DNA of 64,000 bases. It comes from an uncultured Methanobrevibacter sp. (GTDB lineage Archaea; Methanobacteriota; Methanobacteria; Methanobacteriales; Methanobacteriaceae). Below the pieces are notes generated by a model that ran no database searches, was not told where the DNA came from, and saw only the letters and a list, made by a program, of their open reading frames with translations. This document shows positions 6,613 through 32,089 of the stretch, piece by piece; the stretch's first letter is position 1; every line of letters starts with the position of its first letter. The position numbers were made by a program, and so were the translations under genes. The stretch lies in assembly GCF_902784195.1 (NCBI RefSeq), contig NZ_CACZTX010000001.1, forward strand, positions 372,001 to 436,000, in the 5' to 3' direction.

Positions 6613-6996
6613 TTATTTTATAACGGATAATCCTTTTATCTTAGAAAAATCACTATCGAATGAAACTATCTTATTGATTCCTAACTTTTGCATTGATTCT
6701 AAAATAGTGCAATCTGAAAAGTTAATTGAGGAATTATAGTATCCTGATAATTTAACTGATTCAGCATAATCCTTTTCTTTCAAATAAACAATTTCATTCA
6801 TTTCATTCAAATAAATGAAAAGATCATTGATTTCTTCACCGCCATTACTTCCAAATGCATTTAAAGTTTCATTTAAAACAGTGCTATTGATATACCTTTT
6901 CTCGTTTAGTTGTGGTTCCAATTCAATGGCCCTTTTATGAAACTTATCATCTTCGATTAAGCGGGCAATATAATAACTGCTATCTATAAAAATCAA
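6613..6996 (-). CDS. vapC: PIN-domain ribonuclease toxin VapC
   Basis: 127 aa, a full PIN domain. Acidic residues expected to bind magnesium are Asp5 (MIFIDSSYY), Glu43 (LNETLNAF), Asp95 (FSDCTIL) and Asp114/116 (FDSDFS). VapC toxins cleave specific RNAs and are neutralised by VapB. The start is TTG 6996, directly abutting the TAA stop of vapB; its Shine-Dalgarno (GAGGAG) lies inside the end of vapB, so the two genes are translationally coupled. The target RNA cannot be read from sequence. Confidence 0.88.
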   Translation of the reverse strand: MIFIDSSYYIARLIEDDKFHKRAIELEPQLNEKRYINSTVLNETLNAFGSNGGEEINDLFIYLNEMNEIVYLKEKDYAESVKLSGYYNSSINFSDCTILESMQKLGINKIVSFDSDFSKIKGLSVIK

Positions 6997-7230
6997 TTAT
7001 AGTTCTCCTCTTCCAGCTTTTTTCTTTAATTCAACAGCATTTGTAGGTCCTGTTCCCTTGATTACAAATTTAGATAAATCACTTATTGGTCTTTGTCTTT
7101 TGATTTCTATAATCATTTTACCATCTTCTGTACTCCAATCCAATACATCATCCAAACTCAAATCCAACTCTTTCCTGATTTCTGCAGGAACTACAGTTTG
7201 AAACCCCTTATACAACCTTGTACAAACCAT
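6997..7230 (-). CDS. vapB: AbrB/MazE-type antitoxin VapB
   Basis: About 77 aa. A swapped-hairpin AbrB DNA-binding domain fills the first ~45 residues (GFQTVVPAEIRKELDLSLDD is typical), and the C-terminal tail is basic and probably wraps the toxin. ATG 7230 is preferred to GTG 7239 because AGGTGA lies just upstream. As in other VapB proteins it should neutralise VapC and repress its own promoter; repeats suited to this are seen upstream at 7239-7312. The operon contains only vapBC. Confidence 0.87.
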   Translation of the reverse strand: MVCTRLYKGFQTVVPAEIRKELDLSLDDVLDWSTEDGKMIIEIKRQRPISDLSKFVIKGTGPTNAVELKKKAGRGEL

Positions 7231-7238
7231 TTTATTCA

Positions 7239-7312
7239 CCTAATATTACTATATAATATCAGATATTTATAATTACCTGAAATTTAAATTATCTGATAAA
7301 ATTAATATTAGG
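7239..7312. promoter_or_regulatory. vapBC promoter with nested inverted repeats
   Basis: Two nested inverted repeats: the outer pair CCTAATATTA (7239-7248) and TAATATTAGG (about 7303-7312), and the inner pair TATCAGATA (7257-7265) and TATCTGATA (7290-7298). An extra half-site TACCTGA lies between. This fits autoregulation by VapB or VapBC. The TATA-like element lies inside the array. Confidence 0.5.
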
Positions 7313-7467
7313 TTTAAAAATATTATTAAAGATAGGTTTAAACTAAGTTATTTATAAATTTAACTAGATTTAATCTTTATTTATTCAATACAATGAAAAT
7401 ATTGATTTTATTTTGAAAAATAGCGATTATATTAAAAAATAAGTAAAATTAATTAAAAAAGTAAAAA

Positions 7468-24052: not shown

Positions 24053-24143
24053 AAAAAAAGATAGTTTTTAAAACTTAAAGTATAAGAATTCAAAAGAATT
24101 CTTAACTTTAAATTTTCATTACTTGGAGTTTGAAATAAACTCT
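24053..24143 (-). ncRNA. Predicted antisense sRNA of module 2
   Basis: On the minus strand a TATA element (ATTATATATTT, about 24173-24164) lies about 25 bp upstream of hairpin 1 (GAGTTT, 5-nt loop, AAACTC; 24142-24126). The next bases, CTCCAAGTAATGAA (24128-24115), are perfectly complementary to the leader and Shine-Dalgarno of the small ORF at 24256-24375. A 16-bp stem with AAAA-type loop and one bulge follows (24111-24075), then T7 at 24059-24053. The design matches the predicted RNA at 28184-28284. Transcription is inferred; it might instead be the 3' end of the small-ORF mRNA. Confidence 0.5.
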
Positions 24144-24255
24144 AACATATATTCTATTTTTAGAAATATATAATCTTTATTATTTTGAAGGTAAAAAACT
24201 ACCCAATGAAAATATTAAACAAAAATTTTTTAAAATTCGACAACAGATTACAAAT

Positions 24256-24375
24256 TTATTTCATTAGCATTATGAAAATCTTCAAGATTTCTAATGAATA
24301 TTTAAGAATATCTCCAGAACGTTCTCTAAAGACCCCAAATGAATATTTAAGAATATCTCTAATTTTGGTTTTCAT
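24256..24375 (-). CDS. 39-aa amphipathic peptide, candidate type I toxin (module 2)
   Basis: ATG 24375 follows TTGGAGGCATAAA, a near-ideal Shine-Dalgarno (GGAGG, 6 nt spacing); TAA at 24258-24256. The peptide is basic and amphipathic with an internal duplication: DILKYSF at residues 7-13 and DILKYSL at 22-28, ending in IFIMLMK. The ribosome site is covered twice: by a 10-bp hairpin in its own leader (24418-24409 with 24384-24375) and by a 14-nt complement downstream (24128-24115). A TATA element at about 24451-24444 predicts a start near 24424 with AAGGTTT. Small size, strong but masked ribosome site and adjacent antisense segment suggest a toxin; the family is unknown. Confidence 0.55.
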   Translation of the reverse strand: MKTKIRDILKYSFGVFRERSGDILKYSLEILKIFIMLMK

Positions 24376-24418
24376 TTTATGCCTCCAAGTAATGAATATA
24401 TTTTCTGCAGGCATAAAA
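24375..24418 (-). promoter_or_regulatory. Shine-Dalgarno-sequestering leader hairpin of module 2
   Basis: TTTTATGCCT (24418-24409) pairs perfectly with AGGCATAAAA (24384-24375), enclosing a 24-nt loop. The stem takes in part of the GGAGG ribosome site and reaches the start codon of the 39-aa ORF. It competes with the 14-bp pairing to the downstream RNA. Confidence 0.6.
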
Positions 24419-24624
24419 AACCTTCAATTGATACTTAATTTTCATTATAAATAAATATTATAGTTTTTTTAGGAGTTAACTTTCATTTTAATTGATATAT
24501 CATAATTATTCAATCAAATTGATGTTATTTCGTAAAAATAAGAGATTTGATTATTGTTTAAATTTAGAGAAAAAATAGTTAAAATTAGAAAATTAGAAAA
24601 AAATAGAAAAAATAAAAAAAGAAA

Positions 24625-27931: not shown

Positions 27932-28149
27932 TATACCACGATTTTAATTTTTAAATGATTATTTTATTAATTAGAATAATTAATTTAAATAATTTGTTTA
28001 ATTTTAAATATTATTAAAATATTTATACATTATATAATATTAAATTACCTATATTTAAAACCTTTTCAAAATTCCTGAAAAAATTGAAAAATGACGAAAT
28101 TAAAGCAATATTTACTATAAAATAAAGAGAATTAATTAATAATTGATAA

Positions 28150-28190
28150 GATTTAAATAATATAAATCCTAAAATAAGTTTAAGGGTTTA
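28150..28190 (+). promoter_or_regulatory. TATA box and start region for the module 1 sRNA
   Basis: TTTAAATAATATAAAT at about 28152-28167 places a start 22-28 bp downstream, at 28184-28188, exactly where hairpin 1 of the predicted RNA begins. Confidence 0.45.
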
Positions 28191-28284
28191 CACCTTTATG
28201 TAAACTCCTTTATTGGGAAATTGAAACGTTGAAGAATCCTCCTTTTTGGATTCTTTTAACGTTAACTATTACTTGTTATTTTTT
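28184..28284 (+). ncRNA. Predicted antisense sRNA of module 1
   Basis: Hairpin 1 is GTTTACA, loop CCTTTA, TGTAAAC (28186-28205). Bases 28205-28224 (starting CTCCTTTATTGGG) pair with 28511-28531, the leader and Shine-Dalgarno of the 24-aa ORF: 13 bp, one bulged T at 28524, then 7 bp. Hairpin 2 (28225-28263) has about 15 bp and an 8-nt loop TCCTTTTT; with its closing bases it reads CCTCCTTT, exact complement of AAAGGAGG. T6 follows at 28279-28284. The TATA element upstream fits independent transcription. It could also be a long 5' leader of the same mRNA. Confidence 0.55.
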
Positions 28285-28452
28285 ATAATTAAAAATTTTA
28301 ATATACTCTAAACTATTTTTCAAACTAATTTTTAAAAAAAAAATACTAGTTTTGCATAATCTAATTTAATATAAATATTCTAGATAGATTGTTTTTTACA
28401 AAATAAAAGCAATATGATAATTAAAATGTAAACAAAAAGCATAAAATTGGTT

Positions 28453-28539
28453 AAATTTATAAATAATTATTTTAAACTATTATCAAGGTTTCGATATCTA
28501 AAATAAATCCTCAATTTCCCAATTAAAGGAGGTGAAATT
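28453..28539 (+). promoter_or_regulatory. Promoter and leader of the 24-aa ORF (module 1)
   Basis: TTTATAAAT at 28456-28464 predicts a start near 28485 with AAGGTTTCGATATC. The ~55-nt leader contains GATATCTAA (28493-28501), complementary to TTAGATATC at 28668-28676, and the antisense target ending in AAAGGAGGTG. Confidence 0.5.
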
Positions 28540-28614
28540 ATGGTCGTGACTTTGAGACAAGCTTTGCTTGTTATCCTTTTCATAATTCAAATGATCTTAA
28601 TCTTCATTGAATAA
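28540..28614 (+). CDS. 24-aa hydrophobic peptide, candidate type I toxin (module 1)
   Basis: ATG 28540 follows AAAGGAGGTGAAATT, among the best ribosome sites in the window; TAA at 28612-28614. The peptide begins MVVTLRQALLVILF and is one hydrophobic span closed by a single Glu. Its size and start recall short holin-like type I toxins of Firmicutes (MV-T-x3-AL then hydrophobic), a likeness judged by eye. The Shine-Dalgarno is the target of the RNA just upstream. In addition 28532-28543, covering the start codon, pairs with 28616-28627 right after the stop (12 bp including 3 G-U). A strong ribosome site masked this way is typical of type I toxins. Confidence 0.6.
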   Translation: MVVTLRQALLVILFIIQMILIFIE

Positions 28615-28615
28615 A

Positions 28616-28676
28616 CTGTAGTTTCACGATAGTCGAATTTTACAAAAAGTTTATGGTTTGATTTGCCTTAGATATC
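28616..28676 (+). promoter_or_regulatory. Fold-back 3' region of module 1 mRNA
   Basis: 28616-28627 (CTGTAGTTTCAC) complements 28532-28543 across the start codon, and 28668-28676 (TTAGATATC) complements the leader at 28493-28501. Both would close the mRNA into a translationally silent form. Confidence 0.5.
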
Positions 28677-28765
28677 CTTTCATCCTTATTAAAAATAGAT
28701 TAAAAAAAGTTAAAAAATGTAAAATAAGTTATAAAAAAATAAAAAAAAAGTATAAAAAAGTTAAT

Positions 28766-31634: not shown

Positions 31635-31841
31635 CTATTTAGCTACCATTACTTCGGTAGATTTAATAATAGCTTTTACTTCATCACCAATAGCTAATTC
31701 TAATTCTTCTGCAGATTCTCTGGTAATTGCTGCAGTGATTAAAGCTGGATCTTCTACTTTAATTTTAATGCTTGCCATTACAGCACCTAATTTTACACTT
31801 TCAACAGTTCCTTTAATACCGTTTCTTGCACTAATTTCCAT
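31635..31841 (-). CDS. Molbindin-like (TOBE/Mop) protein, copy 2
   Basis: 68 aa from ATG 31841, which follows GGTGATAAA; an in-frame ATG 36 bp upstream (31877) is less likely because the resulting protein would not match its twin. A single Mop/TOBE domain: MEISARNG at the start, ASIKIKVEDPALITAAITRESAEEL, and GDEVKAIIKSTEVMVAK at the end. Small Mop proteins assemble into oligomers that bind molybdate or tungstate. Tandem duplicate of the next gene (31883-32089), with near-identical 3' ends. Confidence 0.88.
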   Translation of the reverse strand: MEISARNGIKGTVESVKLGAVMASIKIKVEDPALITAAITRESAEELELAIGDEVKAIIKSTEVMVAK

Positions 31842-31882
31842 TTTATCACCAATAAATAATTTTCTAATAAATGCCATTAAAC

Positions 31883-32089
31883 TTATTTAGCTACCATTAC
31901 TTCGGTAGATTTAATAATAGCTTTTACTTCGTCTCCTTCTTTTAAATCTAATTCTTCTGCAGATTCTCTGGTAATAACTGCAGTGATGACACCAGGTTCG
32001 GTTATTTCAATTTTGATACTTGCCATAACTTCACCTAATTTTACATCTTCGACTTTTCCGGTTAATCCGTTTCTTGCACTAATTTCCAT
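31883..32089 (-). CDS. Molbindin-like (TOBE/Mop) protein, copy 1
   Basis: 68 aa, same length and domain as its neighbour, mainly differing in the middle (TEPGVITAVITRES). First gene of the two-gene unit; a good GAGGTATTATT ribosome site. A 22-bp perfect palindrome lies at the predicted transcription start, so the pair is probably regulated, plausibly by molybdate or tungstate supply. moaE and mobA lie within a few kilobases. Confidence 0.88.
   Translation of the reverse strand: MEISARNGLTGKVEDVKLGEVMASIKIEITEPGVITAVITRESAEELDLKEGDEVKAIIKSTEVMVAK

Follow-up and report, generated by a model that had tools for sequence, protein, structure and literature searches.

A candidate type I-like toxin–antitoxin family with tandem, same-strand genes in Methanobrevibacter

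Described RNA-regulated toxin systems and the Methanobrevibacter locus

According to a 2025 paper that proposed cyanobacterial type I toxin–antitoxin systems, such systems had until then been reported from Proteobacteria, Firmicutes and Tenericutes alone, a narrow range suspected to reflect search bias (PMC12390103). The rule applied by TAfinder 2.0 (TADB) expects genes on opposite strands, no more than 200 bp apart, and a peptide of at least 30 aa (PMC10767807). In the zorO–orzO, tisB–istR and shoB–ohsC systems of Escherichia coli, a small hydrophobic peptide is accompanied by a divergently encoded, non-overlapping small RNA with approximately 18–21 nt of complementarity to the toxin leader. 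Paralogous pairs are discriminated by few bases (OrzO vs. OrzP, PMC3919570), and the primary toxin mRNA is self-inhibited (PMC5668327). The full-length hok mRNA is inert by end-to-end pairing until its 3′ end is trimmed (PMC5668327). A pair with an RNA antitoxin is known in haloarchaea, namely CreTA (type VIII), in which transcription of CreT, an RNA toxin with a strong Shine–Dalgarno (SD) sequence and a mini-ORF, is repressed through Cascade (PMC8501985). Our full-text literature search, which left most subscription papers outside its scope, found no type I system in archaea.

The window, i.e., the whole 64-kb stretch of DNA analysed, corresponds to C1:372001-436000 of the 2.05-Mb Methanobrevibacter genome G000. 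Among named relatives, the nearest ones that carry these loci are rumen and gut Methanobrevibacter, including M. olleyae SIG14. The initial annotation had proposed a candidate archaeal type I module made up of a 24-codon ORF with a strong SD, and 20 bp of pairing with one bulge between the leader and an upstream segment flanked by two hairpins, with a TATA box at the right distance and a T6 end. The ORF, the SD and the pairing were located exactly as described; the remaining elements were all present, and the RNA folded in the proposed manner (Table 1). The comparison of loci described below supports the type I interpretation. The best reading of the locus is that it belongs to a new archaeal family of type I-like modules with an unusual tandem layout on one strand, the transcription and toxicity of which are inferred.

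By function, the design would be classed as type I, closest to the non-overlapping zorO–orzO kind. The peptide type, a predicted non-overlapping small RNA and the size of the complementarity are shared with the three E. coli systems, as are the discrimination between paralogous pairs by few bases and, by prediction, the self-inhibited mRNA. The archaeal family differs in its archaeal promoters, in its tandem instead of divergent gene order, in an antitoxin placed either up- or downstream of the toxin and in the lack of any sequence similarity; moreover, the archaeal pairing covers the SD itself, from which the binding sites of these bacterial antitoxins lie far upstream. The zor–orz/tisB–istR subclass was matched in complementarity size but not in gene order. 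The predicted 5′–3′ helix and start-codon stem follow the same logic as hok, but a mok-like coupled frame is absent, neither the helix sequences nor the peptide length and family are those of hok, and Sok is encoded opposite hok and overlaps it. CreTA is likewise archaeal and combines an RNA antitoxin with a mini-ORF behind a strong SD; in Methanobrevibacter, however, the peptide shows conservation and the RNA is aimed at the mRNA leader.

Searches of the peptide against Pfam, NCBIfam and PADLOC returned no match even at E = 10, no Rfam family was matched, and by sequence the peptide belongs to none of the described type I toxin families (Hok, Ldr/Fst, Ibs, TisB and others). The TAfinder 2.0 rule, which is a search rule and not a definition of the type, was not met either (same strand, 24 aa). 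Standard finders would miss all six groups of the family described below, since all are same-strand and five have 24-aa peptides.

Table 1. Features of the two pairs found in the window (positions in nt of the window)
Feature	Position	Strand	Evidence or remark
Antitoxin TATA box TTTAAATA	28152..28159	+	Perfect; starts 30 nt before first hairpin/predicted 5′ end; conserved in group 1
Predicted antitoxin small RNA, ~95–105 nt	28182..28285	+	Folds; helices covary; model R2, 7 genomes
Antitoxin hairpin 1	28182..28208	+	97% of cells paired, 9 sequences; pairs mostly invariant
Antitoxin target-binding segment (anti-SD) CTCCTTTATTGGGAAATTGA	28205..28224	+	20 bp with 28511-28531
Antitoxin hairpin 2	28225..28263	+	Covarying helices
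T6, putative terminator, 3′ of hairpin 2	28278..28283	+	
TATA region of toxin mRNA	28456..28468	+	Conserved across loci, 24–34 nt before conserved mRNA start
Predicted toxin mRNA, ~200 nt	28485..28685	+	Conserved block AAGGTTTC... to CTTTCATCC; models R1, R3
mRNA end-to-end helix, 5′ arm GATATCTAA	28493..28501	+	Pairs with 28668-28676
Antitoxin target in leader, most of SD included	28511..28531	+	Pairing with 28205-28224
SD, GGAGG	28528..28532	+	Sequence
Start-codon stem, 5′ arm GTGAAATTATGGT	28532..28544	+	MFE fold; predicted partner 28615-28627
24-aa hydrophobic peptide, putative toxin MVVTLRQALLVILFIIQMILIFIE	28540..28614	+	ATG 28540, TAA 28612-28614; purifying selection
Start-codon stem, 3′ arm ACTGTAGTTTCAC	28615..28627	+	Directly 3′ of stop codon
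Conserved 3′UTR	28632..28685	+	Holds end-helix 3′ arm 28668-28676
Group 6 toxin mRNA, ends TTGAAGGT/ACCTTCAA pair	24185..24427	-	R3 match 24314-24195, E=7.4e-5; fold
Group 6 ORF, 39 aa, MKTKIRDILKYSFGVFRERSGDILKYSLEILKIFIMLMK	24256..24375	-	Orthologue in L051
Group 6 leader target ATTCATTACTTGGAGG	24382..24397	-	14 bp with 24128-24115
Group 6 antitoxin RNA, downstream of toxin	24063..24145	-	R2 match E=0.04; fold, duplex
Group 6 antitoxin binding segment	24128-24114	-	
Group 6 antitoxin hairpin 2	24111-24075	-	

Members of the family and specificity of the leader–antitoxin pairing

A DNA search of the genus yielded orthologues and one diverged paralogue, models built from those revealed further groups, and a third model (R3) added one more group, inside the window. 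Altogether, 22 intact peptide/small-RNA loci were found in 9 of 19 genomes of the genus and fell into six peptide groups (7, 5, 4, 2, 2 and 2 intact pairs in groups 1–6, respectively); four decayed loci and L121, the toxin of which runs off its contig, came in addition. The numbers of groups and of copies per genome are lower bounds. The genome of the window carries five pairs: the 28540 locus, C6:150182, C2:83248, C2:89578 and the minus-strand pair at 24427-24063 of the window. The initial annotation had not included the groups, of which there are at least six, the five pairs in the genome, the second pair 4 kb away, the downstream antitoxins of some groups or the end-to-end closure of the mRNA that hides the start codon. 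Two AT-rich candidates, C6:116794 (matched in the window's own genome) and C2:148138 (matched by a pattern), were rejected as due to chance.

All loci are chromosomal and the family copies occupy unrelated places. The group 1 loci L010-L014 share one genomic place beside cofG. Phages and plasmids searched for the family gave zero matches, and no mobile-element link was found. Eighteen viral pattern matches to the 3′UTR motif were judged to be chance, and two further motifs searched in viruses had no matches. Weak family-level matches outside the genus proved to be unrelated coding or AT-rich sequence without the ORF and the partner; the family was found in one genus only. The group 3 member at C2:89578 (L126) of genome G000 lies directly behind a PIN-domain-like gene and its relatives behind an M24 peptidase or another gene, which indicates that the modules or their neighbours change places. 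Elsewhere in the window, an AbrB-type and a PIN-type protein form a pair that is VapBC-like by appearance (6613-7239, minus strand), and the region upstream of it (7336-7420, L004) matches the 28540 toxin promoter region with 78% identity over approximately 85 nt. At 31635-32089 (minus strand), two small proteins that are similar to each other and encoded in tandem resemble molybdopterin-binding (MOP) proteins.

The complementary segments CTCCTTTATTGGGAAATTGA (28205-28224) and TCAATTTCCCAATTAAAGGAG (28511-28531) form 20 bp with one bulged A and a duplex energy of -28.3 kcal/mol (RNAduplex). Letter shuffles of the former segment gave a mean of -6.1 (sd 2.2; best of 500, -17.0). When both strands of the 64 kb were scanned in 18,274 windows, the best target of the segment besides its own complement was the toxin leader, the next one reaching -21.7. 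The group 1 units are conserved except for their two pairing segments, which stand out as variable islands even among the loci that share one place. These segments vary more than any other part of the units, yet within each locus they are always complementary. The antitoxin location in groups 3–5 was not known before a 3-kb scan around each leader, which placed the partner downstream and on the same strand in eight of eight complete loci. Both pairing sides of the group 6 orthologue L051 (goat-gut MAG RGIG2528) differ from those in the window and still pair.

For 17 loci, the summed energy of the cognate duplexes was -450.8 kcal/mol in comparison with -195.2 (sd 21.8) on average for random re-pairings, none of which reached the cognate sum in 200,000 trials (minimum -324.5). 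The loci are related, so this figure is not a tally of independent events; relatedness alone would, however, make the sequences alike, and thus kinship does not explain the matched differences. Chance complementarity was ruled out by the shuffles, the window scan and the re-pairing. Every one of the 17 leaders had its own antitoxin as the best one, and every antitoxin had its own leader as the best one except that of L123, the core of which is identical to that of L124. When intramolecular folding was included (whole-RNA cofold), the mean was -15.1 for cognate pairs vs. -4.0, and the cognate partner ranked first in 13 of 17 cases. In the 5 × 5 matrix of the pairs in the window's genome, cognate values on the diagonal ranged from -21.3 to -28.3 and non-cognate values from -4.4 to -13.4; five modules could thus coexist without cross-talk, each locus having its own complementary pair. 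The target includes the SD at each locus, and sixteen distinct natural pairing specificities were counted. The initial annotation had called for covarying pairs in related genomes, and these were found in every locus. Comparison of the loci showed that locus-specific RNA–RNA complementarity has been maintained through compensatory change, and in this respect (an RNA complementary to the toxin mRNA, 17 loci) the type I definition was met.

Putative toxin, its mRNA and the antitoxin RNA

The peptides of groups 1–5 (MVVTLRQALLVILFIIQMILIFIE, MEFNFKQFLLLLILFIQMILLFVE, MEISLRTILLLLEVLIKLFLIFIQ, MELTLKFLLLLISAIISFILIFLE and MELDYKLVLDFLMEVLKIILLFLA, respectively) are all exactly 24 aa long, though the identity between groups 1 and 2 is only 46%. 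The best 17-residue hydropathy mean was 2.5–3.2 in the five representatives tested. The group 6 peptide (MKTKIRDILKYSFGVFRERSGDILKYSLEILKIFIMLMK) is 39 aa long and amphipathic, not fully hydrophobic. The pN/pS ratio was 0.14 in groups 1 and 5, and all eight pairwise changes among the group 2 ORFs were third-position and synonymous (0/8 non-synonymous); the ratio was weaker in group 3 (0.64) and group 4 (0.39), with few changes. TTG serves as the start codon in three members of group 3. Judged by these substitution patterns, the ORF is truly coding and under purifying selection, and conservation in relatives, on which the initial annotation had made its proposal depend, was thereby confirmed. 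A small, strongly hydrophobic peptide gene of 24 aa under such selection satisfies what is required of a type I toxin gene, while toxicity and membrane insertion are inferred, with no toxicity assay.

The mRNA appears to silence itself. In the alignment of five groups, the end-to-end helix had 8 double-change cells vs. 0–2 for slid versions; group 5 is off by one column in this alignment, and its correction would add intact pairs. The end helix was thus shown by covariation, as far as sequence comparison can show it. In the full mRNA of the window copy, the start codon had a paired fraction of 0.99, which fell to 0.31 once the 3′UTR was left out. The 3′UTR sequesters the start codon in most group 1 and group 2 mRNAs, group 2 keeping the corresponding stem with different bases, but sequestration is weaker or absent in groups 3–5. 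Self-inhibition in vivo is inferred.

The predicted antitoxin RNA is built in the order of hairpin 1, single-stranded target-binding segment, hairpin 2 and T-rich end; the binding segment is flanked by two hairpins in all groups, and helix covariation was seen in groups 1–2. TATA-like boxes (at least 7 of 8 matches) were present 24–38 nt upstream of 29 of the 34 predicted unit starts vs. 9.9 ± 2.6 in shuffles. In antitoxin units the box lay almost always at -29 to -31, and a perfect TTTA(A/T)ATA preceded the start by 29–31 nt in 13 of 17. The motif AAAGCAATAT occurs twice in the window (28102-28111 and 28406-28415), approximately 75–80 nt upstream of the antitoxin and the toxin unit, respectively; most loci of group 1 have conserved it, and it may serve as a site for a regulator.

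Three loci, L025 (G004), L138 (G002) and L141 (G017), have lost the toxin ORF with the antitoxin intact, L025 and L141 retaining the 3′UTR end of the toxin. In L016 (G017:C101, reindeer MAG), a group 2 toxin has a one-base insertion in an A run next to an intact antitoxin, which may be decay or an assembly error. No intact toxin without an antitoxin was seen among the loci found, L121 being cut by the contig end. This asymmetry, toxin lost and antitoxin kept, is what a toxin predicts.

The proposed mechanism would operate as follows. A TATA-driven small RNA (~28182-28285) would display the unpaired 20-nt segment between its two hairpins, and a separate, tandem TATA-driven mRNA (~28485-28685) would encode the 24-aa membrane peptide. 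The full-length mRNA is predicted to be weakly translatable, owing to the end-to-end helix and the start codon paired with post-stop sequence. Once the leader opens, either while the mRNA is being transcribed or when its 3′ end has been trimmed, the small RNA could pair with the leader and SD, blocking ribosome entry and probably also exposing the mRNA to decay; the block of translation is inferred. If the antitoxin supply dropped, the peptide would be made, enter the membrane and slow or kill the cell.

Alternative explanations and significance

We consider it likely that the locus is a chromosomal type I-like toxin–antitoxin module, with transcripts, translation block, mRNA self-inhibition, membrane insertion and toxicity all being inferred. 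Against it count the lack of a match to a known toxin family, a layout other than the usual opposite-strand one, the restriction to one genus, start-codon sequestration that is not strong in all groups and the 39-aa, amphipathic peptide of group 6. The most serious alternative, unlikely though not negligible, accepts a real sRNA–mRNA pair but regards the peptide as a useful small membrane protein, e.g., a regulator of a membrane complex. Purifying selection on the peptides, the absence of toxicity data and the exclusively chromosomal loci with no mobile-element, phage or plasmid link found are all compatible with this. However, toxins rather than helpful peptides would be expected to show up to five paralogues per genome with mutually orthogonal, private antisense RNAs, double silencing by structure and antisense, and decay in which the peptide is always lost first and the antisense RNA kept.

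It is also conceivable, at a much lower probability, that both segments belong to a single transcript, in which their complementarity would let the toxin mRNA switch intramolecularly, without an RNA acting in trans. The paired segments are on the same strand, 200–320 nt apart, in all loci, and there are no 5′-end data to separate them. Nevertheless, the small-RNA unit lies upstream of the toxin in groups 1–2 and downstream in groups 3–6, no conservation is seen in the group 1 spacer that separates the units, a TATA box of its own precedes each unit, and the antitoxin unit persists where the toxin has been deleted. These four observations argue for two separate transcripts, which remain an inference without transcript data. 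Least credible of all, to the point of being nearly dismissed, is a type VIII-like RNA toxin as in CreTA, with the ORF as a decoy, a toxic RNA and an antitoxin guiding Cascade. In its favour, a strong SD and a mini-ORF are found in CreT as well, and CreTA is the archaeal toxin–antitoxin pair already known to use an RNA antitoxin (PMC8501985), but here the sequence and length of the peptide are under selection (pN/pS of 0.14 in group 1, fixed length), so that the CreTA criterion of a toxic RNA with an irrelevant peptide sequence is not met. In addition, at every locus the antisense complementarity is directed at the leader and SD of the mRNA, not at promoter DNA, and no rare-codon pair after the start codon is common to the groups.

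If the type I-like reading of this methanogen family is true, it extends type I systems to archaea. To our knowledge, archaea lack the classic bacterial RNase III route, so how an RNA antitoxin works there becomes a testable question. The sixteen natural pairing specificities constitute a ready experiment in orthogonal RNA regulation, and the five pairs in one rumen methanogen may offer handles on growth control.
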